64,000 bases of DNA from the NCBI GenBank assembly GCA_016647705.1, contig CM028330.1, positions 28,724,649-28,788,648 on the forward strand, given 5' to 3'. The notes under the pieces were generated by a model. It was not told the DNA's origin, did no database searches, and saw nothing but the letters and a program-made list of their open reading frames with translations. This DNA is from Eucommia ulmoides (taxonomy: Eukaryota; Streptophyta; Magnoliopsida; Garryales; Eucommiaceae). This document shows, piece by piece, positions 11,004-41,565 of the stretch. Numbering within the stretch: the first letter of the stretch is position 1; each line of letters starts with the position of its first letter. Both the position numbers and the translations under genes were made by a program.

Positions 11004-12640
11004 CGACGAGCGTTTGTTATATACTCGCGTATTGACTACTCCCAAGTGTACGAGGTCAAAGTTTTAGAATAATATGATCTTTAAGATCGGGTATCGTATC
11101 TACATGGATTGGTTGTCGTTATTATCGAGTACCATAATTGTCATGACCTAACTTTATCTAGGATAAAAAGAATGACTTTAAATTAATTAATACTAATACT
11201 AATATAACCTAATTTAATCTATACTAATTATACTAATACTAGATGGTTAGGGGATGGATTATCTAGGGATTAACTTTATTTACTTAAATGCATTTGATTT
11301 CATTTAGTTTACAATAATGGTGTTCGACCTATTCGACAATCTCAGTTCGTAAACTCCCCCTCCACCTCTCCTGAGTATAAGACGAGGGAATACATGACTT
11401 CGTGTCAACGAAGAAGTCTCCCTCAACGTCTTAACGACCCTAGGTCACATGAGTCTCATCCCAATATCATTGAGTGCACAAAATCCAACTCCCTCTCGGG
11501 TTATTGGATCGTCACGTTATGTTTACCCTATCGATAATCTTAGTTCGTAAACTCCCCCGCCACCTTTTCGGAGTGTAAGACGAGGGAATACGTGACTTCG
11601 TGTCAATGAAGAAGTCTCCCTCAACATCTTAACAACTCTAGATCACGTGAGTCTTGCCCCAGCGTCATCGATTGCCCACAATCCAACTCCCTCCCGGGTT
11701 ATTAGATCGTCGCGTTGTGTTTACCTTAATCTGAATCCAGGGTTACCTCTTTCGAGTGTCAAACCCCGAATTCTCAATATATCTATCTAAGCATAATAAA
11801 TAAACAATACGGAAAACACAATCAAAATAGCGAAGAACAATCATTAAAAAAACAAAAACTCAAACAAAACTACGTTTTAATAAATAATGTTAATCCCATA
11901 GATAATCTACGTTTAACTTGTGGTCATAACCATTTATACATTGAAAACCGAGCTAAACATTCTCAAACAAATATAGAAGTTAAGAAATAAAAGGAAAAAC
12001 GGATGAACTTAGCCGTAGTCCGAAGATTAGCCACTAAAACCGTTCACCGATCATTTCTCATTCTCCGCGTCGTAATCTTATCATTCGGATTTGTTTGAGC
12101 ACTCCCTATACTTTCTCTTTATTCTATATTGCCTTAAGGGCTCTAATGGCTTGAGAAAGAAAGAGGATAGGAGAGAAGAGGAGAGAGGATTAAATAGGCA
12201 AAATATCTCAAAAAAAATATCTAATCTAGTGCAGAGGTCACCACCGTGGCGGTGAGTAGGTCGGTTAAGTGATTGCCACAGCGGTGGAGTTGGTGACCAT
12301 CCTGTAGTTTTACCACCGTTGTAGTGGATTTCACCGCTGCGGTGGTGGATGTCCAACAAGATTTGGTCGTCTCTGCATTTTCACCGCCGCGACAGAGGTC
12401 TGGATGCTGCAGCGGTGGGCTTCTTTTCAGCATTTTGCCCTCGTGCTTATTTTTCCACCGTTCTTCAACTGTTTTTGGTTTGATCTGATTGTTTACGCTC
12501 TGTTTTTCTACATTTTCACCCCACACACTTGATTTATACAAAAAGAATAAAACCTAACTAAAACGTAATAAAATACTATAAAAATACTCTAAAACTTAAC
12601 AAAACTGGTTTGGAAATATATAGGTAGATGACACCTATCA
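11004..12640 (-). repeat. 3' LTR of LARD-like element (two-block class)
   Basis: On plus it reads from CGACGAGCGTTTG to ACACCTATCA. It contains a roughly 200 bp block twice (about 11320-11520 and 11521-11720), each with CAGTTCGTAAACTCCC, GAGTGTAAGACGAGGG-type and GGGTTATTGGATCGTC-type landmarks. A GC-rich stretch with CACCGC/GCGGTG palindromes lies at 12235-12420. Confidence 0.8.
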
Positions 12641-13278: not shown

Positions 13279-16200
13279 TAATAGGTGTGATTTACCTATG
13301 TATTTCCAAACTGAATTAAGTTGGTTTTAGAGAGTTTATATAATATTTTATTACATTTTAATTAGTTTTTATCTCTTTGTATTAAATCAGGTGTGTGGGG
13401 CAAAAAAATGGGAAACTGGAGCGAAAACGATAAGATTGAACAAAAAGCGATCAAAGAACGGTAGACAAACGAGCTAGGAGGCAAAATTGTGGAACAAGCC
13501 CACCTTCGCGGCGTCTAAACCACCGCCGTGGCTGTGAAGAAGCTGAGAAATACAAAAGGCTACTGATAGCCCATCGCTTAGGCGGTGAATTACACCGCCT
13601 AGGCAGAAATCCAGCAAAAATATTTCCTAAGCCACCACTGTCTTCATCGCTGCAACGATCAGCCAAAACGACCTACCATCGCTGCAGCGGTGAATCCCAC
13701 GGTCGTTGTGGTGACCCTCTGCACAATTTAGATATTTTATTTAGATATTTTGTTATAAATACCCCTCTCCTTCCCCTTCCTGAAGACCCCCCGGCCATTT
13801 GGGCACCTTAAGCTATATTTAGGCTAGGGTTTAGGAGTTTTAGAGGTGGAGCTCATATCCCGAAGTGGAGAAGATGATGAATCGATCGTCGAGCGTTCTT
13901 AGCGGTTTATCTTTGGACGACGCTAAGTTCTTTGATTGTTTTTCCTTATTTCTTTAACTTAGGAAATTGTGAGCATGTTTACCTTGTTATTTCATTGTAA
14001 ATATAGCTATGGCCTTAGCTAAACATGGATTGTAGTAGGGATTAACGAATAAATTTATGAATATGTGTTTGGATGATTTTGGTGTTGCGTTTGTGATTGT
14101 TCTTCGTATTTTGATTGTATTTATCGTATTGTTTGTTTATCATACTTAGTTAGATAAATGGAGAATACGGGGTTTTGACAAACCCTGGATTCAGATTTGG
14201 GTAAACAAACATCACGATTCTATAACCCGGTCGGGATTTGAATTGTGGATAATCGATGACGTTGGGGCAAGACTCACGTGACCTAGAGTTGTTAATATGT
14301 TGAGGGAGACTTTTTCGTTGACACGAAGTCGCGTTATATCCCCCGTCTTACACTCAGGAGAGGTGGTGATAGGTGGAAATAACCTATCTACTTTTAAACT
14401 GAATTTGTTAGTTTTTGAGCATATTAGTTATATTTAATTTCATTTTAGTTTGTTTTAGTGTAAAACAGGTGAAGGGATGAAAAGAAGTGATAAGCAAGCG
14501 AAAACGGTGGAGAAACAGTGAACAAAATGTAAAGAATAAGGTTTTGGTGCATAAAGACCACCGCTTAGGCGAAAATTCCACCGCCCAGGCAGAGAAGAGG
14601 CAGGAAGTTGGGTTGCTGAACCACCGCTTAGGAGAGAAAACTACCGCCTAGGCAAAGATCCGTTAGAATGTTTGTGCCAGCAACCACCGCCTAGGCGAAA
14701 ATTCCTCCCCCTAGGCGAAGATCCGTCAGAACCTAAACCGACTCAACCATTGCCTAGGAGGTGAACCACCTCCTACGTGTTGACACTTTATGAGAAATAT
14801 CTAATTTTAGATATTTTGAAGATATTTTCCGAACCTTTACTTTAACCCCTTTCTTCCTCATTTTTTGTCTTATGCCCAATGATATTTGGAGAGCCCTTTT
14901 CACCTTAGATAGGATTAGATAATTTCGGAAGTAGATTAGATTAGTTTTAGGAAGTGATTTTGGCTAATTCTTGAAGAGCTAAAAGAGGATGTTCATAAAT
15001 GGAGAAGAGGAAGCTCGGGAGGATCATTCTTTGGCAAAAGTGGAGTACTCCACTTTAAGATTTGGCTTTTCTTTCCTTGTTTCCATTTTTTTAATTAATG
15101 TTTATTATTGATGATGATGATCTCCTCTTGATTTAATATTGTAATGGCTAAGATCATGTTAATTTAGTTAGATATTAGTTAGGGTTAGATGTAATTCATG
15201 TAAATATCTCTTTGGTTGAATATAAGTTATTCTAATGGTTTGTTATCCAATTCCAATTGTGCTTACTGTTATTTCACATTTATTATGCTTATTACGATAA
15301 ATTGAGAATACGGGGTTTGACACTTGGGAGAGGTAACCCCAGATTTGGACTAAGGATAAACACAACGCGACGATCCAATAACCTAGGAGGGAGTTGGATT
15401 GTGTGCAATCCATGAGGTTGGGTCAAGACTCACGTGGCTATGTGTTTGGAAAGGCGTTCGAGGGGGACTTCGGCGTCAATACGAAGTCATGTATTCGCTC
15501 ACTTTTCACTTGGAAGAGGGAGTGAGTGAGTTATGTATGCGAAGTGATAATAGTTTAATTAGTGTAATTAGAATACTTGCGAGATAGGTACTAAGTGAAT
15601 GAAATCGATCCCTAGTTAATTAGTGTAATTAGAATTAATCCTTAGGAGTAGTTTAAATTAGTTTAATTTAAATAATTAATTGAATCGTCAGGATAATATG
15701 AGACTACATAAATTGTGGTATTCAATTATTCACACTTTCCTCGTGGGAACGATATCCGATCTTCAAAGATCCATTATATTAAAACTTAGACTTCGTATAC
15801 TTGCAAGAGTAAGTAGCGGCGTATTCCACCCACTACCAACTGGCTAGGGAGTTTTAGAATGAAGATTGTTGATAGGGTGAATACAACGCACGATCCAATA
15901 ACCTGGTCGAGAGTTGGATTATGTGCAATCAATGACACTGGCCGAGACTCACGTGACCTAGGGTCATTAAGACATTGAGGAGGACTTCTTCGTTGACCCA
16001 AAGTCATGTATTACCCCGTCTGACACTCAGGAGAGGTGGCGGTAGAGTTTACGTATCGAGATTGTCAAATAGGCCGAACATCGTAAACGTGAGTAAATCA
16101 AAATCAAACACATATTTGTAAACACGTTAATCCCTAGGAAATTCTTTACCCTAAAACATATTAGTATATTAATGTAGTTAATTTAGGTTATAGTAGTATT

Positions 16201-16396
16201 AGTTTAATTAATTAAATATATTTATTTTTAGCCTAGATAAAGTTAGGTCATGACAAACGTGGTATTCGATAGTAACGACACCAATCCCTATGGATATGAT
16301 AACCCGATATTAACGATCACACTATACTAAAAATTTGACCTCGTACACTTGTGAGAAGTCAGATACATCGAGGGTGCAAAATCCTCTGCACATACA
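13279..16396 (+). repeat. 5' LTR of inner LARD-like element, split by a solo LTR
   Basis: Starts TAATAGGTGTGATTTACCTA (the family start is TGATAGGTGTGA) and ends CTCTGCACATACA. Without the inserted 14367-15840 unit it is about 1.64 kb, matching the two-block class. A TATA box GTTATAAATACCCC lies near 13753. A GC-palindrome stretch lies at 13500-13725. Confidence 0.75.
14367..15840 (+). repeat. Solo LTR, one-block class, inside another LTR
   Basis: Starts TGATAGGTGGAAATAACCTA and runs to about 15840, where the host LTR resumes with GGCTAGGGAGTTTTAG. It carries the 200 bp block only once (about 15320-15540). The palindrome stretch at 14555-14775 uses the variant CCGCCTAGGCG. It is closest in class to the solo LTRs at 40175 and 60593. 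The right edge is approximate. Confidence 0.7.
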
Positions 16397-17433: not shown

Positions 17434-18314
17434 CTAAGCCACAACTATCTTCATCATCACAGCGATCAGCCAAACCAACCTACCACCACCACAGCGGTGA
17501 ATCCCACGGCCGTGGCGGTGACTCTCTGCACAGCCTAGATATTTTATTTAGATATTTTGCTTATAAATACCCATCTACTTTCCCATCCTGAAGACCCCCC
17601 GGCCATTTGGGCACCTTAAGCTATATTTAGGCTAGGGTTTAGGAGTTTTAGAGGTGGAGCTCACATCCTGAAGTGGAGAAGACGACGAATCGATCGTTAA
17701 GCGTTCTTAGCAGTTTATCTTCGACCGAGGCAAAGTTCTTCGATTGTTTTTCCTTATTTGTTTAACTTAGGATATTGTGAGCATGTTTATCTTGTTATTT
17801 CATTAAAATGTGGCTATGGCCTTAGCTAAATATGGATTGTAGTAGTGATTAATGAATAAATTTATGAATATGTGTTTGAATGATTTCGGTGTTGCGTTTG
17901 TGATTGTTCTTCGTAGTTTGATTGTATTTATCATATTGTTTTTTTATCATTATTAGATAGATAAATGGAGAATAAGGGATTTTGTTAAACCATGGATTCG
18001 TATTTGGGTAAACAAACACCACGATTCTATAACCTGGTCGGGGTTTGAATTGTGGATAATCAATGATGTTGGGGAAAGACTCACCCGACCTAGGGTCATT
18101 AAGACATTGAGAGGACTTCTTTGTTGACACGAAGTAGCGTTATATCCTCCGTCATACACTCGGGAGAGGTGGTGGTGGAGTTTACGTACCGAGATTGTCA
18201 AATAGGTCGAATACCGTAAACGTGAGTAAATTGAAATCAAACATGTATTTGTAAACTTGTTAATCCCTAGGAAATTCTTTAGCCTAAAATATATTAGTAT
18301 ATTAATGTAGTTAA
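17434..18314 (+). repeat. Partial LTR of the LARD family
   Basis: Matches the middle of the LTR at 13279-16396 from TAAGCCAC to GTAGTTAAT, including GAAGACCCCCCGGCCATTTG and the adjoining ACCTTAAGCTATATTTAGG. It lacks both LTR ends and holds only one 200 bp block, unlike its partner. Deletion or recombination after insertion would explain this. Confidence 0.7.
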
Positions 18315-19441: not shown

Positions 19442-21053
19442 TGACAAGCGTTTGTTACACGCTCGCGTATTGACTACTCGTAAGTGTACGAGGTCAAAGT
19501 TTTAGTATAATGTGATCTTTATGATCGGGTATCGTATCCACAAGGATTGGTTGTCATTATTATCGAGTACTGTAATTGTCATAACCTAACTTTATCTAGG
19601 CTAAAAAGAATGATTTTAAATTAATTAATACTAATACTAATATAACCTAATTTAATTTATACTAATTATACTAATATGAGATGGTTAGGGGATGGATTAT
19701 TTAGGGATTAACTTTATTTACTTAAATGAGTTTGATTTCGTTTAGTTTACAATAATGGTGTTCGACCTATTCGATAATCTCAGTTCGTAAACTCCCCCGC
19801 CACCTCTCTCTAGTGTAAGACGAGGGAATAAGAGACTTCGTGTCAATGAAGAAGTCCCCCTCAATGTCTTAACGACCCTACGTCACGCGAGTCTTGCCCC
19901 AACGTCATTGATTGCACACAGTCCAACTCCCTCCCGGGTTATTGGATCATCGTGTTATGTTTACCCTATCAACAATCTCAGTTTGTAAACTCCCCCGCCA
20001 CCTCTCCCGAGTGTAAGACGAGGTAATATGCAATTTCCTGTGAATGAAGAAGTCCCCCTCAATGTCTTAACGACTCAAGGTCACGTGAGTCTTGCCCCAA
20101 CGCATCGATTGCCCACAATCCAACTCCCTCTCGGGTAATTGGATCGTCGCATTGTGTTTACCCTAGTTTAAATCTGGGGTTACCTCTTCCGAGTTTCAAA
20201 CCCCGAATTCTCGATTTATCTATCTAAGCATAATAAACAAACAATACAGAAAACACAATCAAATAGCGAAGAACAATCATTAAAGAAACAAAAAGTCAAA
20301 CAAAACTACGTTTTTATAAATAACATTAATCCTATAGATAATCCACGTTCAACTTGTGGTCGTAACTGTTTATACATTGAAAACCGAGCTAAACATGCTC
20401 AAACAAATATTGAAGTTAAGAAATAAAAGAAAAAATGGATGAACTTAGCCATAGTCCGAAGATTAGCTGCTAAAACTGTCCACCGATCGCTTCTCCTTCT
20501 CCGCATGGTAATCTTCTCCTTCGGATTTGTTTGAGCACACCCTATACTTTCTATGTCTATTCTATACTAAGCCCTAAGGGCTCTAGTGGACAGAGATAGT
20601 AAGACGAGAGGAGAGGGGGGGGATTAAATAGGCAAAATATCTCAAAAAAATATCTAATCTTGGGTAGAGGTCACCGCCGTGGCGGTGACTAGGTCGGTTA
20701 AGTGATCGCCGCAGTGGTGGAGTTGGTCACCATCCTATAGTTTCACCGCTGTGGCGGTGGATGTCCAGCAAGATTTGGTCGTCTCTGCATTTTCACCGTC
20801 ACGGCGGAGGTCTGGACACCGCGGCGGTGGGCGTCGTTTCAGTATTTTGCCTTCGTGCTTGTTTTTCCACCGTTTTTTCGACCGTTTTTGGTTCGATCTG
20901 ATCGTTTACGCTCCGTTTTCTTACCTTTTTACCCCACACACCTGATTTATACAAAAAGAATTAAAACTAATTAAAACGTAATAAAATACTATAAAAATAC
21001 TCTAAAACTTAACAAAATCGGTTTGAAAATATATAGGTAGATCACACCTATCA
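19442..21053 (-). repeat. 5' LTR of LARD-like element (two-block class)
   Basis: On plus reads TGACAAGCGTTTGTTACAC to CACACCTATCA. The 200 bp block occurs twice (about 19760-19970 and 19971-20165). The GC-rich palindrome stretch lies at 20670-20840 (TCACCGCCGTGGCGGTGA and relatives). CCTAC follows directly, matching the altered left flank. Confidence 0.8.
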
Positions 21054-22584
21054 CCTACTGCTAAAGAATAGATAACTGCAATGGAAGATGAGATTAGTTC
21101 TATGCAAAAGAATCAAGTATGGGAACTAGTTGATCTTCTGCTTAGACGAAAATTTATTGGAAACAAATGGGTTTTAAAGATTAAACATTAGGCAGATGGA
21201 TCTATTGATAGGTACAAAATTCATCTCGTGACAAAATGTTACACTCAAAAATAGGGTGTAGACTACGAGGAAACTTTTTCACCTATTGTTAGGTTTGCCT
21301 CCATTCGCTTGATCCTAGCCATCGTCGCCCATTTGGATCTAGAACTTTTTTAAATAGATGTTAAGACTGCTTTTCTCAATGGAGAACTAGATGAGGAGAT
21401 CTACATGGATCAACCTATTGGTTTTGTGGCCAAGGGACAAGAGCACAAAGTGTGCAAGGTAAAACGTTCTATTTATGGCCTAAAACAATCATCTAGATAA
21501 TGGTACCTCAAATTTCATCAAGCCATAATTACTTTTGGATTTATCATGATTGAGTAAGATCATTATATTTATATAAAGTGGTTGGAGAAGGGTTTCATTA
21601 TCCTTACTCTATATGTAGACGATATTTCATTAGCATGAAATGACATAGGGATAATTGTCTCCACTAAAGAGTGGTTGTCTTTTACTTTTGATATGAAGGA
21701 CATAGGTGAAGCAAATTATGTACTTGGTGTAAAATTATTTGAGACCATTCTAAGAAACTTTTTGCTTTATCTCAAGAGAGTTATATCAAGAAGGTACTTG
21801 AACGATTTCGAATGCATAATGCTAAGCCTATAGACACTCCTTTCAGAAGGGTAGTACCTTGAGTCTTGATCTTTGTCCTAGAACTAATGTTAAAAAAGAA
21901 GATATATCCCGTATACCATATGCAAGTGCAATTGGAAGTCTAATGTATGCCATGATGTGTACACAACCATACATATATTATGTTATGGGGTTAGTTAGTC
22001 GTTTCCAAAGCAATCTAAGAATTATTCATTAGAGAGCAATTAAAAGGATCTTGCGGTACCTTCATAGAACCGTAGACTATATGCTTTCCTATCGTGATGG
22101 AAATATACATTTGGAAGGATATAGTGATGTAGATTGTAGTAGTGACTTGGACGAACATAAGTCAACATCAGGATATGCTTTCATACTCAGCAACGGTGCT
22201 ATTTCGTGGTCTAGCAAAAAGCAATCGTGCATAACACTATCCACTATGGAAGCAGAATATGTTACTTGTGCTTCAGTAGTTCAAGAGATTGTTTGGTTAA
22301 AAAGAATTTTAGAAAATCTTGAGATAGGAACACATTCTGCAGATCCCTTAACCATACATTATGATAGTATGGCTGCTCTCGCATATATCAATGATCCTAA
22401 GTATCATGGAAAGACGAAGCATATTCAAACTCGATATCACTACATCCGAGATAGAGTCTCACATGGAAAAGGGGTACTCAAGCATATTTCTATGAGTAAA
22501 ATGGTGGCTGATCCCTTAACGAAACCTATTTCTAGAGATTTGTTCCAATCTCATGTCAGGTCTTTAGGTCTTCGTAGATTGTAA
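21054..22584 (+). pseudogene. copia reverse transcriptase and RNase H remnant
   Basis: Continuation of the copia host right of the nested element. Reverse transcriptase motifs: [43 protein letters not shown] and LTLYVDDISL (YVDD catalytic box). RNase H at 22051-22584: GYSDVDCSSD, STSGYAFILSNGAISWSSKKQ (in two pieces), STMEAEYV and GKTKHIQTRYHYIRD. Several breaks disrupt the frame; the RNase H part is the longest open stretch (177 codons). Confidence 0.9.
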
Positions 22585-25962: not shown

Positions 25963-26244
25963 TAAATATGGGACTAATTGAACTTGTGAAATTTTCTATT
26001 TAATCATCTGTTCTATGTTTGAATGGGGAGAAATGTCAGTGAATGGCAATTGAATCATTGATGATATAATCATTTCTATTGAGCCTTCCAAGTAAATTTT
26101 CAATGTGATATTGATATTTAGTGGTTTTTGGGAGTGGTATTTATTTTTGATTTTTTTATTGGTTACCTCGGGATTAAAAGACATGTTAATAATAATAAAA
26201 ATTAATATTTTTTTTTTAATAAAATTATTGTAGTACATAAGTCA

Positions 26245-27180
26245 GGAGTTGTTTACCGAATAAATAGTATTTACAGAACACAGACTACCTGGGATTGGTA
26301 ACCCCGGGTACTTAAACCCGGGGTTACCAACCCCTGGGTATTAAAAAAACCAAATTTCGTATACCTAGTGTTCATAACATTGAGTATACAGTTATTTTTT
26401 TTAAACGTTAGACCTGGGGTTCGTAACCCCGAGTACATCTCGTTTGAATTTCAAACAGTAATATTACCGCTTGAAGCTACAAAGTTGAAGCTTTGCAGTT
26501 ATGCGTTGGATTGCAAAGCTTTGTAGCTTTGGAGTCTGCAAAGCTGGACCCAGGGTTCGTTTTAAATTTTAAATTAGGACCCGGGGTTTCTAACCCCGGG
26601 TCCTTAAGGGCTATAAATACCCCTAGGTTTTCGTTTAGTTTATGAAAAAGACTTTCCTCTCCAACTTATTCTTCTCCCAACTTCCTACCTTCTCTTAGCA
26701 GTTCTTTATCTTCAAAGGATTTCACAACTTGTTCTTTCTACTATAAAGGTAATTTCATTTTAACTTTGTTTGTTTAATTTATTTGTTAATTTAATTAGTA
26801 TATTTTTCACTTGTTTAATTATTTAATTATTTAATTTAGTCATTTAATTAAAATATGTGCACTTTCACTCTCAATGTTAGTTAATTAGTTTAATTTGTTA
26901 ATTTAGTTGTTAGTTAGTTTATTTTTCTCATATACACTTTGACCCTTAAAGTTTGAGCAAATTACACATCATGTGAAAAAATATAAATTATAATATATTA
27001 TTTAAAAAAAAAATTGTTAGTTAATTAATTTAATTTGTTAATTTAGTTGTTTAATTAAAACATGTGGACTTTCGCCCTCAAAGTTAGTTAATTAGTTTAA
27101 TTTGTTAATTTAGTTGTTAGTTAGTTTATTTTTTTAATGTGTTTGAAAAAATTATTTTATTATTTAAAAAAAATATATTT
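26245..27180 (+). repeat. Left terminal inverted repeat of MULE with hairpins and promoter
   Basis: Matches the reverse complement of 37460-38335 with gaps: AATAAATAGTATTTA, hairpin blocks with CCCGGGGTT, a TATA box CTATAAATACCCC (26613-26625), GGATTTCACAACTT, then AAAGGTAATTT as a likely splice donor near 26747. About three subterminal repeat units with TGACCCTTAAAGTTTGAGCA-type motifs follow (26850-27180). Confidence 0.75.
26295..26330. repeat. Perfect 15 bp hairpin at MULE terminus
   Basis: TTGGTAACCCCGGGT (26295-26309) and ACCCGGGGTTACCAA (26316-26330) are exact reverse complements around a 6-base loop ACTTAA. Related but weaker hairpins follow at about 26410-26435 and 26580-26605. The opposite terminus has degenerate counterparts near 37807-37830, 37910-37940, 38055-38120 and 38198-38255. 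Confidence 0.85.
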
Positions 27181-28137
27181 TAGCCGTTTAATGTTTTAAA
27201 ATAAATTTTAGTCTTTCAATTAAAACCAAATTAATTGAATCTATCGAATTGATATTAACTTGATGTGGAATTTATATTCCATTGAAAGTTAAAGTTAATT
27301 AAATAATTACCTAAATTGAAAATAAATAAAATGATAAGGATTAAAAAATATACATGACGGGACATTTGTATCGTTCAATGGGATGTCACTGGCTTTTGGA
27401 AGATGAATTCTTGTACTCTTTAGATCTAAGAGTTCGTTACTTTTTATGGTGGGTTGCAAGGATGCGGGTAGAATAAACTTATCGTGGGAAACAAGCACAG
27501 GTTATGGTGGATGGATGCAGGCAACACAATATTCCTATAGTGCATCAATTTGCCCAAACAATACCAATGTACATGCTACATGATCTTTAGATGGTATTAT
27601 ATCGCTACCACAACGAAAATAATCGAATGCAAATTCGAAAGCATCGACATGAACTTCAAATGACGGTATATGAGTATCTCCAAAAAGGTTTAGTTGGCGA
27701 AGTGTGTACTTACATGAGATTCTTAAGGAAATCTGAATATCAATCAAATATTGAAATGTCTGATGATGAGAGTAATGTATAATATTTTGGCGTTAGTGAA
27801 TTGCAATTTAACTATGTATTTCTTTTTAAGTTTAATGTATCGTTTCTACACTAGATTATACTAACGCTACTTCTACCAAACAATACACTTTTTCTCTTCA
27901 TTTAAATTTGAAAAACATACATACAATAAGAACGGTTTACAATACTAGGACAATACGTAGAAAAAAACACATAGTCCATTACAAACACAACTAATAGAAA
28001 ATATGAGTTTGATATAAAGTTTGTTGGATGAGCGGATTAGCAAACATTCATACTCAAATACCTTCAAGGGCACTCAGGTATTCCATGAATATACAATCAA
28101 GAAATTCTACAAACTCTTTAAATTCAAATAAATAGTT
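27181..28137. other. MULE interior, unrecognised sequence
   Basis: Plus-strand open stretch of 63 codons at 27591-27782 (ending KSEYQSNIEMSDDESNV) looks mildly protein-like (acidic end), but I do not recognise it and see no start context. The rest is AT-rich and non-coding. Confidence 0.3.
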
Positions 28138-28680
28138 CTAACCCTTTGAATCCATCCTAATTGTCAAGTTGTTCATCGATTTAGGTAAGTACTTCACCGT
28201 GCTACCTGTCTCTTCTAGGATTTTTGTGAACTTACCAGTGTTTATCATATTCTCCACAGAAGCCTTATAGTCACAGTAAATTACGCAATTTGTGAACAAT
28301 GTGTTCTGCAACATAAAAAGTATTGGCGAATACTTCGTACACCAGCACTTCTTTGGCGCTTCGGTAAAGTGTCGCCGCATATCAACTTTTTCCTATTCTT
28401 GTTCTAATTTTCCCCTCTAATGTGGTCCATGCTGACCAGTTATGTGACCAATAACATTTAGCAAGTACTTGCTTGCAAAAAAATAAATTGTCAAATTAGG
28501 AAATAATGAAAATAAAAAGAATATATATATATATATATATATATATTCCAAAACATTTACCATAATCTTCTTCGTAAAATTTATCTATTGTTTTTGGGAA
28601 CAAAACGAAATAAGGTGGATACTACTAAACCAAGATTGATTTCAATAATACATGTTCCTAAGTATGAGAACTGAGGTTGT
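28138..28680 (-). pseudogene. Unrecognised minus-strand gene candidate in MULE
   Basis: An 80-codon open frame (28138-28380, starting MRRHFTEAPKKCWCTKY) lies downstream of a minus-strand TATA box at 28683-28691 and a T-rich leader. It contains three cysteines and no motif I know. A short AT run (28520-28545) lies between the TATA box and the frame, perhaps in an intron. It could be a captured host fragment or chance. Function unknown. Confidence 0.3.
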
Positions 28681-28682
28681 TC

Positions 28683-28870
28683 CTATTTATAGAAAAACCT
28701 AAGGCGGGAAATCAACAACAAATTGGCAAGAAATGAGAAACAAAATGGTGGGAAAGACTTTGGTGGGAAAAAAAAAAATGAGGAAATTTTTTTGGGCGGG
28801 AATTCTGTTGGCGAGAAAGTAGTTGGCAAAAAATGCGAAAGGCGCAAAAAATTGCCTATATATACATCTA
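28683..28870. promoter_or_regulatory. Putative divergent promoter with E2F-like motifs
   Basis: Minus-facing CTATAAATA (28683-28691) and plus-facing TATATATACATC (about 28857-28868) bound a 165-base interval. It contains four GGYGGGAA motifs at 28703, 28747, 28762 and 28795. The first and last (GGCGGGAAAT, GGCGGGAATT) fit the E2F consensus WTTSSCSS on the other strand. A leader rich in CT and the ATG at 28943 follow on plus. Inference from motifs only. Confidence 0.45.
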
Positions 28871-28942
28871 TACTTTCAGAATAATCATTCACACCACATT
28901 CATTTCTCTTCTCTATTTTCTTTACTCAGAAAATTAGTTCAA

Positions 28943-29700
28943 ATGGCAAGCAAGTTAGGAAATGATAAGGGTAAGGGCAAATGCAAGAAAAAAATGAACA
29001 CCTGTTGCACCGGTGAGGGTTCAGGGACAAGGGACCATGCTAAGTACCAAGATGAGATAACTACGTAGTGTGGAATCCAGATACACCTGTTAAAGATTAT
29101 ACATTAGAGTGGAGACAAACCGCGGTGCCCACTATTATGGTATGATGCCTGAAAGAGGTTGTGTTACCCCAAGATGTGTGCGGTCCATAGAATGTTATTA
29201 TAGATTGCACTGGTATTAAATAATAGCTAGATCTCTCTAGCACATGGCTGAATCCCATCACAAGAAAATGATTTTTTTCAGTACATGGTGATCCTTTCAA
29301 ATAAACTGTTCGATGGGTCAATCGTCGTTACCACGAGAGTTACAACTACACCAAATGGGGCAAGGATAATGAAGAGGCAAAGAATTTACAATGATCAACA
29401 CTAATGAAAAAAAAGAACCTTTATGAGGCAAGGTCTCATATGTACCACCTCAAGATTCCAAAATTATGGTCTTTCGAAATATTGAAAAACAAACTGGATA
29501 ACATCGACAAAATTTGCTACGCATTAAAATGAGAAATAAAAAAAAATGGAGAAACAAATTCATGTCAAATAGAGACTCCGCCAGATGTCGTTAAAGTACT
29601 TTACTGATCCCAAATACACGAATGACCTAGAACTGTCCGATTACAAAAACAGAGATATTCACTATGAATGGTTTGATAAAACTAGGTAGTTATCGATAAT
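28943..29700 (+). pseudogene. Unrecognised plus-strand gene candidate in MULE
   Basis: ATG at 28943 opens a 41-codon lysine-rich frame (MASKLGNDKGKGKCKKKM) that then closes. Protein-like fragments continue in other frames, such as KDYTLEWRQTAVPTIMV near 29090-29140 and LWSFEILKNKLDNIDKICYA near 29470-29525. They suggest a decayed gene of several hundred bases downstream of the divergent promoter. I do not recognise the family; it could be an extra transposon gene or a captured host gene. Confidence 0.3.
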
Positions 29701-30822
29701 AGAAAAGTTCAATTATGGGTATTATTTTATAATTTATCTAATGTTTTTTTTCTTCTTTTTATGATTAATTATACTTGTTAACGCGTTTAGTTTGAGTATG
29801 ATGTTTTTGATTATTTTAAGTTGTTTCACCTTTAAGATTAAACTCTTTCAATGTGATCTAATATATTAGGTGAAAGAAATGAAATGATCCATTATTTAAA
29901 TGATGTGATATTTCAATTGATAGGTGGTGTTGGGTTAGGTCTTTTTTTTTTTTTTTTTTAGCAGCTAAGCCTCGTGTAAATAAGTTCTAAAACATCATTT
30001 TTAAAAGCTAATTTGTTTTGTAAACAACTCATAATGTGCAGTATAATAATTGTAAAGAAACTATTCATCCTATAATTTTTGTGATGGCTTCAAATATTAA
30101 TTCAAGTGAAGAAAACTCATATGGTATTTCAAGTGAGGAGAACTCATATAGTGTTTGGGGTTAGCTTAGACCTTGGGATCACTATAGATGTTGGATTCTA
30201 CAACTATATTATGATGGATACTAGAGTGATCAAGACACCAATTCGATAGAGTATTGCATCGATCTACGCCACGAATAAGAATATAGGGTAAAAGAGTCTA
30301 ACAACCTTGTATCTTGTTTTAGAGCTCTTAATGCACCAGTTCTGCATCATCGAAGTCTTTAGACGCCTCGATAATATCAAGTTGATGATACAACCAAGAT
30401 TGAAGATGATATTACATGCATTTGCCTAGAGAATAATCGGATATTGTTGCGAAAGAAACGATATTATCCACTCCAACTAGCCAATGAAATGGTTGCGGCA
30501 AGTAATAGAGCACTCTTTCCGAATGAATACCATAATGTGATAACCAACAATGATTATTTGTCTGAGGGATACATGTCCAATGAAGAATAAATAAATTTAG
30601 GAAGTTGTATTGTCTTTTTAAGTATTTTCTTGTGACTATTTTCCTGATGTTATATACTATATTTCTTATGTATTGTCTTTGTTGTGTGTTTTGTAACAAA
30701 CATTATTAAATATGTTTGTTATGTATTGTCTTCATTATGAGATTTTCAGTGATTATGTACTCGCTTAATGTATGTATAAGGGATACATGTTTAATGATGA
30801 ATAAATATGGATATACACGTAT
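29701..30822. other. MULE interior, no recognised gene
   Basis: Contains a T run at 29942-29959 and scattered short plus-strand protein-like pieces (LANEMVAASNRALFPNEY near 30477-30530) that I cannot place. No RNA gene seen. Confidence 0.3.
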
Positions 30823-31872
30823 ACGAGCGGGAGGATTTCGCACCCTCGGCGTATCTGACTTTTTACAAGTGTACGAGATTAATGTTTTAGTATAGTGTGA
30901 TCATAAAAGATCGGGTTATCATATCTACAAGGATTGGTGTTGTTACTATTGAATATCGCATTTGTCGTGACCTAACTTTATCTAGGCAAAAAACAAATAT
31001 ATTTAAATAATTAAACTACTACTAATATATCCTAAATTAACTACAATAATATACTAATATGTTTTAGGGTGAAGAATTACCTAGGGATTAACATGTTTAC
31101 AAATACGTGTTCGATCTCGATTTACTCACATTTACGGTGTTCGACCTATTTGACAATCTCGGTACGTAAACTCCACCGCCACCTCTCCCGAGTGTAAGAC
31201 GAGGGAACACATGACTTCGACAATGAAGAAGTCCCCCTCAATATCTTAACGACCCTAGGTTATGTGAGTTTCGCCCAGCGTCATTGATTGCACACAATCC
31301 AACTCCCGATCGGGTAATTGGATCATGCGTTATATTTACCCTATCGACAATCTCCATTCTAAAACTCCCTCGCCACCTCTCCCAAGTGTAAGACGGGGGA
31401 TATAACGCAAATTTGAGTCAACGAAGAAGTCCTCCTCAATATCTTAATGACCCTAGGTCGCGTAAGTCTTTCCCCAACATCATCTATTGTCCACAATTCA
31501 AACCCCGACCGTGTTATATAATTGTTGCATTTGTTTACCCTAATCCAAATCCGGGGTTTTTCAAAATCCCAAATTCTCCATTTATCTATCTAAGCATGAA
31601 AAACAAACGATACAATAAACAGAATCAAACTACGAAGAACAATCACAAACGCAACACCGAAATCAACCAAACCACATATATATAAATATAGTGTTAATCC
31701 CTACTACAATCCATGTTTAGCTAAGGCCATAGCTACATTTACAATGAAATAATAAGCTAAACATGCTCACAATATCCTAAGTTAAAGAAATAAGGAAAAA
31801 TAATCGAAGAACTTAGCCTCGTTCGAAGATAAACACTAAGAATGCTCAATGATCGATTTACCGTCTTCTCCC
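30823..31872 (-). repeat. Truncated LARD-family LTR inside the MULE
   Basis: Matches the minus-sense LTR of the two-block class from the CGCACCCTCGGCGTATCTGAC end (compare 16360-16396 read backwards) through both 200 bp blocks (about 31135-31330 and 31331-31530). It continues to GATCGATTTACCGTCTTCTCC, where the match stops about 500 bases short of a full LTR. It postdates the MULE insertion. Confidence 0.75.
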
Positions 31873-32189
31873 TATATAGTAGGCATCACAAGTCTAAGGT
31901 TGATGAGAAGATTGAGGAGATGGAGAAACGTCAACTGGAATTTGGTGCGGTACCTAACGGTACACTACCGTTGAACATGTATCGCGGACGACAGGACAAG
32001 TCTCATGGTATGACTCAGGAGTTTCTGTCCACAGAGAAAGCCTACTCAAGCGTATCTGCTGCGATACATTTGGATCCTATGAAACACATATGATCGCTAA
32101 GTTAATACATGAATAATAAAAAAAATATTCAAACTCATATAAGTAAATAGATGATATACTCAATGTGGTCATACCTCTAATTGCGCTCG
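31873..32189. other. MULE interior next to LTR fragment
   Basis: A plus-strand open stretch to 32093 has a charged, coiled-coil-like beginning (HKSKVDEKIEEMEKRQLEFG). I do not recognise it and its start lies in the LTR fragment, so it is not called a gene. Confidence 0.25.
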
Positions 32190-33600
32190 TCCTCCTGCTG
32201 CTAGATAACCGAACTCAGGTTGGTACCTTAGGTTGACCAAAAACCTTTATGTGATATTCCAATAATAGTCCATGTATTCATGGTCAACCCCTATTCCTTT
32301 TTCAAAGCTGCCCAAATCTGGTGCTCACTGTCTATTCCACGTAACTATATGCTGTTGGTGCTTCATAGTCCAGTTCGCACTTTAGTGTCCTCGCTGACTA
32401 GTGTTATGAAACTTCCCATCCATAATAAACAATTGAGGAATCCATTTTTGATAACCAAACTATTGTAGCACGCGAAGGGGATACATGTATTCAACGATCT
32501 CGTAGCAAATAAAAGAGAGCATTGCCATCCATATATCTTCTCTATCTCTAGTATATGGAGGCAAAGTCAACAAGAGATAGGGCATCCAAACGATATGTCC
32601 AAAAATATATATAAATAAATAAATAAATAAAAAATTGACTTAAATAAATAACTAACCTCGTTATTCTGTAACCGATCTAACTAATTGTGATAGACCACCA
32701 AATTATGCATTGACACGTTTTCTAAATTGAATTTAAGGGTCCACCTGTACACGAAAAATATAAATTATAAGTTTAACTAAATATTAATAAATATCCATTA
32801 CATCATAATGAAATAAAAAAAAAATTACTGATTACTTACCAAGCACCCCTAGGAGTGGCTAGGAACCAAAAGTCCCCAATCTCCAACTCTTCGAATGATT
32901 GATTATAATTGGAGAGAGGGACAACGGTGGGTTAAAGCCTCGGGAACTGCTCCTAAGCCCAACATTCCAACAAAAATAGGTAGTCGGCTATGTCTTTCAT
33001 CGTGCCCTTCAACGCCTTTCATAGCTCGCGATAGAGGATCGCTAGTGTCGTACTGCCCCAACTGTATTTGAGGGGTGGTGTCAAGTCACAGAGCAGCGAG
33101 AAGTAGGCTAGCTTGATGCTGTTCTACGATTTATATGGAAGCAACATCATGCCAAGCAGAATCAAGTAATACGCACGTGCGTAGCAATGCATGACCTCAT
33201 TGCCAGCATCCTTAGGAACTTCGTCGAAGGTTTTTCGTAGCCAATTGAGCTTCAAACAATCATTTCTTATCTTATCCTTTGGAGGTGCCACTCCAAGGAG
33301 ATCATTGCAAAGTTCCTGCCAACTAGATACTGGTCGTGTGTCCTCAGGGTCGATAACCAGTTACCTGTGCACGGGTAACCCCAACTGGATGGTCATGTCC
33401 TGTAACTTGATGATCATCTCCCTAACGGGTAGATGGAAAGTGTGCGTCTCCAGACGCCATTTCTCTACCAACGCGGTTATGAGGCACCTATCAAATTGGT
33501 TCAACAATAGCCTAAAAAGGCTGTACAAACCGGCTAATTCTATCAGGTTTATAACTCGACCGAGGGTGTTTTTTCTCCATCCCCTACATCAAATCCAGCA
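32190..33600 (-). pseudogene. Plant mobile domain (PMD) protein remnant carried by MULE
   Basis: Minus-strand translation from about 33580 reads LYSLFRLLLNQFDRCLITAL, then VEKWRLETHTFHLPVREMII, KLQDMTIQLGLPVHR, NDLLGVAPPKDK, LNWLRKTFDE, CYARAYYLILLGMMLLPYKS and YSWGSTTLAILYREL. After an interval with plausible splice sites (donor CTTG/GTAAGT at about 32850, acceptor TACAG near 32745) it continues as MPYLLLTLPP, MAMLSFICYEIVEYMYPLRV and NRQ. These follow the plant mobile domain order known from MAIN and MAIL proteins (ALVERWRxETHTFHLPxGEMTITLQDVxxLLGLPV; RAYxLxLIG; YSWGSAxLAxLYREL; PLICFxIVExHxPxRV). PMDs occur in host silencing and growth proteins and in some MULEs and gypsy elements. Several in-frame stops and a GEMTIT-to-REMIIK change suggest decay. 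It lies about 380 bases downstream of the transposase on the same strand. Confidence 0.8.
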
Positions 33601-33975
33601 CAGTCGAGTGAACTAGTATCCTGAAACATTAATTAAGACACAATAAATGACATAAAAATTTAAAAATTAAAAATATTAATGTAATAGCTTAAATATTTGT
33701 CTGTCCTATCCAGACTAATGCGGACCTGTGCTTAAACTGTGAGTGTAGAACTGAAGGATCTACAGGCCCAGGCCCAGACAAACTGAAATTTTTTCTCCCA
33801 ACACTTGTGTCAAATTTATTAGTAGGAAATTAAAATTTAATCACATTTATAAACAAAAAATAATATTCATTACAAATAAATGTGTGCAACAAGTGCATGA
33901 AATTTATGATACATAAAATTTGGCCTATGAAACAAATAAAGTCGCATAAACATTCATTATAATGTATTGAAAAGA

Positions 33976-34846
33976 TTAATTGAGTGTATAGAGGGGTCGG
34001 GATGTACACTTCTGCCTATCATGTCCAGTCGGGGAAGACAAATTGCACCAATTTGTCATTGTTCTTCGCCACTTATCCATCTCGTTTTGAATGCGTGTGG
34101 ATTTTGGTCGACCACGCTGTACAACTTGAAGCCTATTATAGCTTGGAATAAGGTTCAAAAAATTAGTCTATGGCCAGTAGTCTTCGTGAATAATTGGCTG
34201 AAACGATGATTCCCACATCATCAATTGATTTGTCATTTTGTACTCAGTTGCAATATAGCGGAACACATCAACGCCACTATACTCGATGGCTACAAGCATA
34301 TGGGAGCATGAATATTGATAAATTTTACAATTCTCACATGTGCAATTAGCGTTATCCACTAATGTGACTTGGTGAACAATAAGGCCCCCAATAAGAGTGT
34401 TTTAGTTTTGATATGATAGATTGCATTCTCTTTAAAAAAAAAATCATATTTAATTAAATTATGTATGGAAAAAATTATATGTAACATAAAAAAAAAAAAG
34501 GTAAATAATAAATAGTAACTTATCGATTAAATATTTGAATCTCGTATGTTTTGGATTTGGTTTGAAATTTCTGCATTTTTTCAATGACGTGTTTAGCGTA
34601 TAGGTAACCGTCGACTGAGACCTTTAGAGCTTCTTGTCGATTAATATCAAAGTGTTTAACCATCCTACACAAAATACTCTTCACGGATGTAGTAATTGGA
34701 GCATTTTTTGCACCCTTCTAGCAGTTGTTAAATATCTTAGCGTAATTAGTCGTGATCACTCCCCAATGATTACCAGCGTCGTGGACCCTGATCCATTTTT
34801 CCACGTCAATACTGTCCAACCACCTATGCGTCAGAATATCTAGTTT

Positions 34847-34881
<35 letters not shown>

Positions 34882-36240
34882 CACTTCCATGATTGCATCG
34901 TATTTTTGAATTTGTGTCACAACACCCGCATTCTAAGCAAGATCTTTCAGTTGCTTATTTTTAACTCGCTTGTTGAAATTGTTGCAAAGGTGCCGCAAAC
35001 AAAATCGGTGATATCCGACGGGCTCATTCTATTGATTAAGCCATAGGTTGTCAACTGCATTAGTAATGCCCACGTGTCTGTCAGATATCAATGTCACCTC
35101 AAGATGATCTCTAACAATATAGTTCTTAAGCGTGTAGATGAACTATCGCCAGCAGCGATAGTCCTTATTTAGTATGACGACGAAAATCAAGTGGGTCTCG
35201 TTAATTTTGAGGACAGGCCGACAATAACTCCATTCGTTAAATAAAGGTTTGAATGCCCAAAACACCATGTCGAACTTCCTGTAGGAAGGTATATCTGTCA
35301 GAACAATGCTCCACTCAACAATCGTACCCAGATTGTACTACTACAAGGCGACCATAAACTTTGAAAACTTTCGATATGATTCATCCTATTCTCTAAACAA
35401 GGTCTCGATGACTTTAGCTCCAGCCAACCAAATGTTTTGGTAGGAGATGGTGAATCCCTGAGACTCCTTCACCGAAGCCAATAACGCCCATCTTCTATTC
35501 TGGATCCTCTTCAAATTATCTAAATATTAAGTTTGAAATGACACCAAAACCCAAAATTTTATGATCTAAAGCCGCATGATTATAGAAACATGTGTGTTGC
35601 CCATTGTAATGCATTATTTGAAACATACAATGATTTCTCCAAACATGGTATGGGAATACTGTGGGAGTAATATTGTTCTGGAATGTAGGAGGGTTGGACA
35701 GTGTAATTAGACTAGACTGCTTAGGGGTACGACATGGGAATATTATAGCTGAAAAATTATTCGTCAGATTGGGTATTGTACGTATTAAAACTTTGAGTCA
35801 TTAAGTGGGTGAAATAACAACTTTGGGAAAACAATTTGGACCATGATCAAATGCTCGTTCTACTTCTACATACACCTCAACAGTAAGAAGCGAGGGTATG
35901 TAAAGAGGTAACTCAAGCACTTGGTCTAATACTGAGTCGTCCCCGATAGAAAATAAGGTATATTTAAAATTTCCCCGAAAAGAGCCATCGGCATCATACA
36001 CTTTAATTTTAAATTCCCATTAGCACCATCCTTAAGAACACACTGTCTTAGCATCTCAATTTATTCGTTTAAGGTTAGTCCCCTTCGGACAATCAAAGAT
36101 TTTATAGATGTGGTACTGTAAAAAACTCTGAACTCGGTACCTTTTAATATTCTACCACCCCAATACAACAAGAACCTGACGTCATCCAATTCAAGTGGCT
36201 ATCATTTGACATGCCAAAACAGAGCAAGAAAAATATTGTC
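33976..36240 (-). pseudogene. MULE transposase, decayed
   Basis: Minus-strand order from the right: N-terminal segment DVRFLLYWGGRILKG (about 36165-36200), then the transposase core at about 35390-34890. The core has GTIVEWSIV, FDMVFWAFKPLFNEWSYCRP, VLKINETHL, LISDRHVGITNAVDN and YHRFCLRHLCNNFNKRVKN. The SWIM zinc finger follows near 34300-34359 (CTCENCKIYQYSCSHML), then HEDYWP, RGRPKSTRIQNEMD and a zinc-knuckle-like end GHDRQKC before the stop at 33976. Families like this normally have IDGTHL; here the first catalytic aspartate reads as asparagine (INETHL), while the second (LISDRH) is kept. Several in-frame stops are present. No intact copy is possible from this locus. Confidence 0.85.
34849..34879 (+). 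repeat. T homopolymer run
   Basis: About 30 consecutive T bases within the decayed transposase (minus-strand A run). It may be a slippage expansion and interrupts the coding sequence. Confidence 0.7.
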
Positions 36241-36289
36241 GTCCACTAAGACTAAAATATATTTATTTAAATGTAACTCCTAACAAATT

Positions 36290-37620
36290 AAACAATTAAA
36301 CTAACAAATTAACCAATAATTTTGTTAAAACAATAAATTATAATTTATATTTTACTACATAATGTGTAATTTGCTCAAACTTTGAGGGGCCAAAGTGCAC
36401 ATTTTTAATTAAATATTTTTTTTATTAAACAACTAAATTAAAAAATTAAACATACAAACAAATTAACTAACTAACAATTCATTTTAAAATATTATATTAT
36501 AATTTATATTTTACCACATAATGTGTAATTTGCTCAAACTTTGAGGGGCCAAAGTGTACATTTTTAAATTAAGAAACTAAATTAAAAAATTAAATTAACT
36601 AACTAACTAAGAAATTTATTTAAAATAATATATTATAATTTATATTTCCCCACATGATATGTAATTTGCTCAAACTTTGAGGGGCCAAAGTGCACATTTT
36701 TAATTAATTTTTTTATTTTATCAAACAACTAAATTAACAAATTAAACAAACTAACTGACTAATTAACTAACAATTTATTTTAAAATGATATATTATAATT
36801 TATATTTCACCACATGTATAATTTGCTCAAACTTTGAGGGGGCCAAAATGAATATTTTTAATTAAATATGTTTTTATTAAACAACTAAATTAACAAATTA
36901 AACAAACAAACTAACTAACAAGCACTTTATTTTAAAACAATATATTATAATTTATATTTTAATTTATATTTCCCACATGTGTAATTTATCCAAACTTTGA
37001 GGGGCCAAAGTGCATATTTTTTTAATTAAATAACTAAATTGACAAATTAAACTCAAATCAACTAACTAACTAATTAACAATTATTTTAAAACAAAATATT
37101 ATAATTTATATTTTTCCACATGTGTAATTTGCTCAAATTTCAAAGGGCCAAAGTGCACATTTTTTAATTGAACAACTAAATTAACAAATTAAACTTAACC
37201 TAACTAACTAACTAACAAACATTTTTTTTTAAAACAATATAATATAATTTATATTTTTTCACATGTGTAATTTGCTCAAATTTTGAGAGGTCAAAGTGCA
37301 CATTTTTTAATTAAATAATTTTTAATTAAACAACTAAATTAACAAATTAAACTTAAACTAACTAACTATTTTTTTTTAGTACAATATGTTACAATTTATA
37401 TTTTCCACACATGTGTAATTTGTTCAAACTTTGAGGGGCCAAAGTGTACAGTTTTTAATTGAACAACTAAATCAACAAATTAAACTAACCAAATAACTAA
37501 CAAATTAAATAACTAAACTAACAAATTAAATTAACTAACTAACTAACAAATTAAATAATTAAACGCGTAAAAAACATACTAATCAAACTAACAAATAAAT
37601 TAAACAAAAGAAACTAAAAT
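36290..37620. repeat. Subterminal tandem array of MULE, about eight units
   Basis: Units of about 138-170 bp each contain TTATAATTTATATTT, CCACATGTGTAATTTGCTCA, AACTTTGAGGGGCCAAAGTG and TTAAACAACTAAATTAACAA. The CAAACTTTGAGG landmark or its variant occurs near 36376, 36535, 36674, 36823, 36991, 37133, 37273 and 37423. Only about three units exist at the other end (26850-27180), in inverted sense. It lies between the terminal promoter and the transposase, perhaps in a 5' leader intron (donor AAAGGTAAGTTT on minus near 37628). Confidence 0.85.
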
Positions 37621-38335
37621 AAACTTACCTTTATTGCAGGAGGAAGAAATTATGAAGTTGTGAAATCCTTGATGAAGAAACTGCCAAGAGGAAGGAGGAA
37701 GAAAAATGTGTCTGCTGAAGGAAGGAAGAAGGAAAGAGGAAGGATGAAGAAATTTTTTGATTGCTGTAAGAAACATTTTATTGTTGAAGGGTATTTATAG
37801 GCCTTAAGGACCTGGGGTTCTGAACCCCGGGCCCTTAAGCTATCAATTTTTTTTTGACTGTTATGCACTTTGCACAGAACGATACAAAAAAATTGATCGT
37901 TCCCTTAAGGACCCATGGTTCACAACCCCGGGTCCTTAAAGGAGACTGCACTGCAATCTGTTCGATTAAGAACGCAAATTTTATTTGACCATTCTCGAGA
38001 ATTTGATGGTTGTTTCCTCAGGAACAACAGTCAAATTTTAATAATTTAACAGTTATGGACTCGGGGTTCACACCCCAGGATCCTAATTTGTACCTAGGGT
38101 TACGAACCCTGGGTCTTACTTTAAAAAAAAAAAAAAAAAAAAAAAAAGTCCGTATACTCGGTGTTGCGATCATCGGGTATACAAAACTTGTTTTTTTTTA
38201 TACCCGGGGTTTGTAAGCCCAGATTTAAGTACTCTGGGTTACCAACCCCGGGTGGCCGGTGTTGTGTAAAAAAATTGAGAAAGACCCGTTTTCAGATTTT
38301 TTTTTTTAAATACTATTTATTTGGTAAAGAACTCC
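37460..38335 (-). repeat. Right terminal inverted repeat of MULE with promoter
   Basis: Reverse complement opens GGAGTTCTTTACCAAATAAA and carries degenerate CCCGGGGTT hairpins, a TATA box CTATAAATACCC (37789-37800 on minus), GGATTTCACAACTT and the donor-like AAAGGTAAGTTT. An A run (38119-38145) adds local length difference. This end most likely starts the transposase transcript, as in MuDR-like elements where termini act as promoters (inference). Confidence 0.75.
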
Positions 38336-38655
38336 ATAAGTCTTAATTTATTTTTGAGGTAGAATGTGGTATTCTTTTGTGGGGGCTCTTGGTGCCCAAT
38401 GCGCACATTTAATAGGAGATCAAAATTTATTTAACCCACTCTTCAAAAGGAGGTTAGTAGTAGGACTATTTGATTTGCAGGACCAAAATATTCTTTCTTT
38501 CGTCTTCGGTAAAAATGCTAGAGATTCAAGCATTCAATACTTGATGTGATACAAAATTTGTAGGATCATTTTATGAAGTCTTATGTTTTTCTTCAAAACA
38601 CACACAATATATTTGGTTTATCTTGTCTATTAAATAATTATGATATGAATTGAAG

Positions 38656-40174: not shown

Positions 40175-41565
40175 TGGTGGCCGTAATTACGCGTCACCAC
40201 TTTCACCGCAAGCATACGGGTTAAGTTTTAATATAATGGACCTTTCGGTTGGGTATCGTATCCACAGGGATTGGTTGAGATTACTATCGACTACCATGAT
40301 TATCATAACCTAATTTTATCTAGGCGCTTAAAAATCGAATTTAATTTATACTAATACTAAACTAAAATACTAATTTAATTAACTATACTATAAATACTAA
40401 TTTGAGATTGTTTAGGAGAGTAGATTGCCTAGGTATTAACTTTATTTACTTAAATGTGTTTTATTTCGTTTTAGTTTACATTAACAGTGTTCCGCATATC
40501 TGATAATCTCGGTTCGTAAACTCCCTTGCCACCTCTCTCGAGTGTAAGACGGGGGAATATGCGACTTCGTGTCAACGAAGAAGTCCCCGTCAATATCTTA
40601 ACAACTCTAGGTCATGTGAGTTTTACCCCAACGTCATTGATTACACACTCTCGAACTCCCTCCCGGGTTATTGGATCATCTCGTTGTGTTTACCCTAGTC
40701 CGAATCCAGGGTTACCTCTTTCGATTTTCAAACTCCGTATTCTCAATATATCTAAACTAGCATATAATCATAGAAAATACGGAAACACAATCGAAATTAT
40801 AAGGAAGAACTATAAACGAAATACAAACTCAACCAAATCATATTTTTATAAATAATATGTTAATCCCTATTACAATCTATGTTTAACTCATGGTTATAAC
40901 CGGTTATAGATTAAAACCCGAGCTAAACATGCTCAACAATCAACCAAAGTTAGGAAAGTAAAGAGAGAAACGAAAGAACTTAGCCGTAGTCCGAAGATTT
41001 AGCGCTAAAACCGTCCAACGATCGCTTCTCCTGTATTGCAACGCGTTCTTCTCCTTCAGAACTGGTGGAGTACACACCGAAACATTCTCAAAACCATAAG
41101 AACCCTAAGGGTTCTCTTATAGTCAGGTGAAGGAAGAGGAGAGGGGAGGAGGGTTTCAATAAGGCTCAAAATATCCTAAAAAAATATCTAATTTGTGCAG
41201 AGCTGACCGCCACGGCGGTGAGGTAAGTTGGTTTGATGGTCGCCTAGGCGGTGGAGAAGGCGGTGGATTAAGGACCATCCTGTAGTTTCACCGCTGTGGT
41301 GATGGTTGTTCAACAAGAATAGCCCACTCTGCATTTTCACCACCACGGTAGAGGGTATCTATTCAAAATCTTGCCTCCTTGCTTGTTTTTCCACCGTTTT
41401 TGGTCTAAATTGATCGTTTGCACTTCAATTTTATAGCTTTTCACCCATACACCTATTTTAATACAAAAAGAATAAAAATATATTAAAACGTACTAAAACA
41501 TACTAAATGTACTTGAAAACTAACAATGTTTGATTTGAAAATATATAGGTAATTTACACCTATCA
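40175..41565 (-). repeat. Solo LTR of LARD family with perfect ACGTG duplication
   Basis: On plus reads TGGTGGCCGTAATTACGCG to TTTACACCTATCA, flanked by ACGTG at 40170-40174 and 41566-41570. It is 1391 bp, one-block class, with the palindrome stretch at 41205-41360. A single LTR with intact target duplication means that the full element was lost by LTR-LTR recombination. Confidence 0.85.

Follow-up and report, generated by a model that had tools for sequence, protein, structure and literature searches.

A bounded Mutator-like element carrying remnants of a transposase gene and a plant mobile domain gene on one strand

Plant mobile domains (PMDs) occur in Gypsy elements and in Mutator-like elements (MULEs), and the PMD proteins MAIN and MAIL1 have a role in transposon silencing (passages of PMC5418596 and PMC9289625). 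The consulted passages of Ikeda et al. (2017; PMC5418596) describe MULE-PMD fusion proteins of the PMD-C clade in grasses and Amborella, propose that MULEs captured host PMD-C genes, with two captures counted (grasses and Amborella), and speculate that MULE-borne PMDs are used against host silencing, an idea repeated in a passage of a 2021 review (PMC8616336). Eudicots are reported to have mainly genic PMD-C (excerpt of Nicolau et al., 2020; PMC7156037). Table 1 of Dupeyron et al. (2019; PMC6446971), in the part at hand, lists “PMD” for at least seven plant MULE groups, namely MULE-Solanaceae_1, VANDAL, MuDR-9_OS, MULE-Monocots, MDR, MUDRAVI2, and MUDR, and for most members in four of them; MUDRAVI2 contains many dicot sequences. 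We read “PMD” there as plant mobile domain, the words “mobile domain” having no match in the text retrieved from that article. Given the published fusions (PMC5418596) and these seven groups (PMC6446971), a MULE with a PMD is unsurprising in any host. No match to “mobile domain” was found in the retrieved text of a grapevine transposon survey (PMC2528002), and a detailed MULE-PMD element was absent from the excerpts of this and other open-access articles that were consulted (PMC9289625, PMC9899485, PMC10673657, PMC3946583, PMC5240378, PMC4583175, and PMC11152179).

The region examined here, positions 26245-38335 of a 64,000-nucleotide stretch of DNA (the window), is a real, bounded MULE that holds the remnants of a transposase gene and of a PMD gene (Table 1). 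Like the grass and Amborella elements, it brings a MULE transposase together with a PMD, but those elements are stated to encode fusion proteins of the PMD-C clade (passages of PMC5418596), whereas here a fusion is a possible reading. With the groups listed in the consulted part of PMC6446971 it shares a transposase with a SWIM finger, putative in the present case, accompanied by “PMD”, several of these groups also having terminal inverted repeats (TIRs) of tens to hundreds of base pairs; in several of them, however, some or most members carry the PMD in antisense orientation, whereas it lies in sense orientation here. The combination of MULE and PMD is already published, and the element is well bounded but ordinary. 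The initial annotation expected it to fill a gap in knowledge of how the domain moves, an expectation overtaken by the host PMD-C capture proposed in 2017 (passages of PMC5418596). Since MAIN and MAIL1 act in transposon silencing while PMDs ride in MULEs and Gypsy elements, each bounded PMD-bearing copy can help reveal the direction of domain movement between host and transposon; a single decayed copy without relatives for comparison adds little to the published record and serves mainly as a bounded example.

Table 1. Features of the element and its immediate flanks, in window positions
Feature	Position	Strand	Evidence or remark
Left target-site duplication ATAAGTCA	26237..26244		7/8 bases identical to right copy
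Left extended TIR	26245..26721	+	gapped end alignment
Palindrome CCCGGGGTTnnnAACCCCGGG, left end	26288..26600		five matches, some overlapping
TATAAATA in left TIR	26612..26619	+	sequence, pointing inward; candidate promoter
Donor-like GGTAATT	26748-26754	+	136 bases after left TATAAATA; candidate 5' intron donor
Possible second decayed gene	28943..30590	+	read by eye; strand opposite transposase, downstream of promoter-like left-TIR sequence
Repeat of about 1 kb, later insertion or fragment	30841..31871	+	matches at least 7 other places in window
PMD gene remnant, intron-bearing	32186..33781	-	Pfam PF10536 and reading of frames
PF10536 match, profile 238-346 of 347	32597-32262	-	E 2.6e-9, 37.2 bits
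PMD intron GTAAGT...TACAG, 95 bp	32839-32745	-	removal keeps reading frame
PF10536 match, profile 1-194 of 347	33531-32923	-	E 3.8e-41, 141.8 bits
Decayed MULE transposase gene, in frame pieces	33979..36195	-	Pfam PF10551 and PF04434; N-terminal part and zinc-knuckle-like end by eye
SWIM finger remnant, PF04434	34279..34374	-	E 0.0052
MULE transposase domain remnant, PF10551, profile 32-99 of 99	34978..35190	-	E 8.7e-5 and 3.7e-5
Subterminal tandem repeat array, periods 143, 295, 449	36281..37509		inverted relatives at 26721-27144
Right extended TIR	37616..38335	-	gapped end alignment
Donor-like GGTAAGT	37629-37623	-	170 bases after right TATAAATA; candidate 5' intron donor
TATAAATA in right TIR	37792..37799	-	sequence, pointing inward; candidate promoter
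Palindrome CCCGGGGTTnnnAACCCCGGG, right end	37811..38252		five matches
Right target-site duplication ATAAGTCT	38336..38343		7/8 bases identical to left copy

The boundaries rest on the two ends and on the bases that abut them, and here the initial annotation, which had described matching inverted termini between ATAAGTC flanks, was borne out. Read inward from 26245 and, reversed, from 38335, the outermost 28 bases of the two ends are identical at 26 positions in an ungapped comparison, and the inverted similarity extends inward, with end-versus-end local alignment scores of 48, 56, and 127 at 30, 120, and 400 bp. As controls, the left end was compared, at each length, with 2000 random draws from the rest of the window, draws touching the element being removed; none of those retained (n = 1592, 1590, and 1579; maximum scores 23, 25, and 28) reached the scores of the true ends. 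A gapped alignment of 476 left bases with 720 right bases gave 363 matches, 88 mismatches, and 294 gap columns, and the element thus has the long TIRs expected of a MULE, although the inner limits of both extended TIRs in Table 1 are our choice. The 7-mer ATAAGTC is itself common in the window (9 occurrences against a shuffle mean of 11.51, that is, not above chance), and the flanks carry weight because they abut both termini. MULE target-site duplications measure 8-11 bp, 9 bp being the commonest length in the rows of Table 1 seen in PMC6446971; the duplication here fits this range marginally, being 8 bp long with one mismatch and exact over 7 bp, and the 9-mers adjoining the two element ends do not match in register.

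To examine the coding content, all six frames of 26245-38335 were scanned against Pfam with X in place of stops (E up to 0.1, 0.5, and 0.5), followed by rescans to E 10 of 27150-30840 on both strands and of 31500-33800 and 33900-36300 on the minus strand. The matches were confined to MULE, SWIM, and PMD, all on the minus strand and in that order, together with a weak NUP match that we took as chance. The transposase domain, though decayed, is recognizable as that of a MULE, and the putative SWIM finger lies 3' of it in the right position and on the right strand. Both domains named in the initial annotation, the MULE transposase and the SWIM finger, were thus matched, each below its Pfam curated cut-off (24.5 versus 27.6 bits for PF10551; 16.8 versus 19.6 bits for PF04434). 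In-frame stops number 14 in 696 codons, as opposed to 39/692 and 60/691 in the shifted frames (piece edges included), a count biased low since the reading needs several frame changes and its pieces were picked by eye after looking. The stretches 34884-34838 and 34525-34399 and the putative introns were omitted from this count.

The PMD gene remnant has the stronger Pfam matches. Both PF10536 matches exceed the curated cut-off of 34.9 bits, which places the gene in the family, and the domain is nearly whole. Besides the intron in Table 1, a further donor GTTAGT, seen by eye, and a possible last intron GTATGA...CATAG are less sure. The proposed last exon (32085-31872) has no frame preference, with 3, 3, and 5 stops in the three frames, so that the 3' end of the gene is placed tentatively. 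With piece edges included, the PMD reading has 12 in-frame stops in 462 codons (shifted frames, 31/462 and 30/458), a density with no detectable difference from that of the transposase (Fisher p 0.55). A wider count led to the same result (18/738 for the transposase and 15/527 for the PMD, p 0.72), as did a first count trimmed at stops (9/667 and 11/453, p 0.25), which the edge-inclusive count superseded. The two remnants share the minus strand, as first noted, but the spacing of about 380 bases given at the time needs correction: about 200 bp separate the last transposase codon (33979) from the first PMD exon (33781), and about 450 bp separate it from the Pfam-matched domain.

Taken together, we consider it likely that 26245-38335 is one old, once autonomous TIR-MULE in which a promoter at the right end drove the PMD as well as the transposase, the two possibly joined in a single spliced protein. 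The copy seen here is dead. Transcription would have begun in the right TIR, crossed a 5' intron enclosing the tandem repeats, and continued leftward over the transposase and the PMD gene in turn. The ends, where the GGGGTT/AACCCC palindrome is repeated, would have been bound by the transposase or a partner, which would thereby have mobilized the element. The element may have acquired its PMD part from a sister element or a host gene, and this part would most likely have helped it against host silencing, the role speculated by Ikeda et al. (passages of PMC5418596). That the two genes formed one transposon programme, as proposed initially, is the simplest reading because the element is bounded, its two genes lie on one strand, no retrotransposon family was matched around the PMD, and the stop densities are alike; the proposal is partly supported overall. 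No separate termini of the PMD segment were noticed along the way.

Whether the two genes made one protein is less certain. A fusion is suggested by the first PMD exon, which begins just after an acceptor-like TTTCAG, with no in-frame ATG between the upstream stop and this exon; such a start argues for splicing onto an exon further upstream, the pattern of the published fusions, which are known from grasses and Amborella (passages of PMC5418596), although decay could explain both features. The competing view, which concerns only this part of our reading, is that transposase and PMD were two separate element genes, and we give it a substantial, if less than even, chance. It draws on the stop at 33978-33976, directly after the zinc-knuckle-like end of the transposase, and on the antisense PMDs listed for other MULE groups, which show that separate genes exist (consulted part of PMC6446971).

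Both ends carry further motifs. With up to 3 mismatches allowed, the palindrome CCCGGGGTTnnnAACCCCGGG has 10 matches in the window, all within the two element ends, against a mean of 0.00 in 100 shuffles; single GGGGTT/AACCCC half-sites reach at most 2 per kb elsewhere in the window versus 7, 3, and 3 in the terminal kilobases of the element. This array, restricted to the ends, is a candidate protein-binding or hairpin motif; a collection of viral contigs held 0 exact matches to it. The TATAAATA sequences and the donor-like sites that follow them could represent a promoter and a 5' intron enclosing the tandem repeats, and inverted relatives of the right-side repeats (36281-37509) are present on the left at 26721-27144. 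Maize MuDR has promoters in both ends. The present element likewise has promoter-like sequence in both TIRs and, as in MuDR (named in the consulted part of PMC6446971), a transposase gene accompanied by a further gene. An arrangement of convergent genes transcribed from promoter-bearing TIRs is conceivable, in which a transposase-PMD fusion would run leftward and a second protein, from 28943-30590, rightward, one of the two binding the palindrome array; we regard it as unlikely. Scanned to E 10, the plus-strand stretch 28943-30590 matched no Pfam family. If this arrangement were true and the plant a eudicot, the element would represent a sense transposase-PMD arrangement beyond the two captures of Ikeda et al.

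The single-element reading also has to be weighed against a later, separate arrival of the PMD gene, as a host gene copy or a Gypsy-borne PMD, in a MULE that made no use of it. The element does contain at least one further repeat (30841-31871), situated near the 3' end of the PMD gene, and PMDs are known from Gypsy elements too (passages of PMC5418596 and PMC9289625). However, the six-frame Pfam scans of 26245-38335 matched no retrotransposon family inside the element and no Gypsy polyprotein domains around the PMD, as a Gypsy-borne PMD-A would have; the PMD retains an intron, its stop density is similar to that of the transposase, and a transposase with a PMD is a published MULE arrangement (PMC5418596, in the passages seen). 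We therefore judge such an arrival quite improbable. Host gene fragments are known in some MULEs (consulted part of PMC6446971), but packing of a host PMD gene by a non-autonomous MULE (Pack-MULE), with an unrelated transposase remnant, is very improbable, as the transposase remnant is enclosed by the same two ends as the PMD, shares its strand, and sits directly upstream of it, so that the element does not lack a transposase of its own.

The element had also been described as dated, which we do not uphold, the divergence of MULE ends being no clock. The 88 mismatches among 451 aligned bases correspond to a Jukes-Cantor distance of 0.226, from which assumed substitution rates would give 8.7-16 My; this figure was not accepted as a date, since the two ends of a MULE may already differ at insertion and the alignment is heavily gapped.

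Relatives of the two genes were sought in several collections. Five query pieces found no other transposase or PMD relatives in the window (E up to 1), and a PDB search with the PMD piece had no match up to E 10. In collections of viral and prokaryote records, the PMD piece had no confirmed relative among 8 pattern-matched stretches in viral contigs and 41 in genome contigs, and neither did the transposase piece, a weak query in frame over the SWIM region only, at 1 pattern-matched stretch in viral contigs. The motif CATGCAGTTT, linked to MAIN/MAIL1/PP7L and used here in its MORC1-promoter form (excerpt of PMC9899485), has no match in the element even when one mismatch is allowed, and so nothing ties the PMD of the element to that pathway; at that tolerance the window as a whole has 2 matches, neither of them within the element, against a shuffle mean of 4.98.

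The repeat at 30841-31871 has at least seven counterparts elsewhere in the window, at 11027-12056, 13867-14369, 15841-16386, 17675-18199, 19458-20463, 40251-40998, and 60826-61114. Repeats of this type measure up to about 1 kb, occur in both orientations, and include a 170-bp stretch in two related versions. No Rfam family reached its gathering score in the window, and a sigma-70 promoter scan was set aside as meaningless for plant DNA. Plus-strand open frames at 275-1382, 10260-10907, and 22033-22584 look by eye like fragments of Gypsy and Copia polyproteins. GC3 of a leucine-rich repeat (LRR) frame in the window is 0.43, a value suggestive of a host other than a grass. Another plus-strand open frame (4679-5686; 335 codons) encodes LRRs and presumably resembles plant intracellular Ras-group-related LRR proteins.
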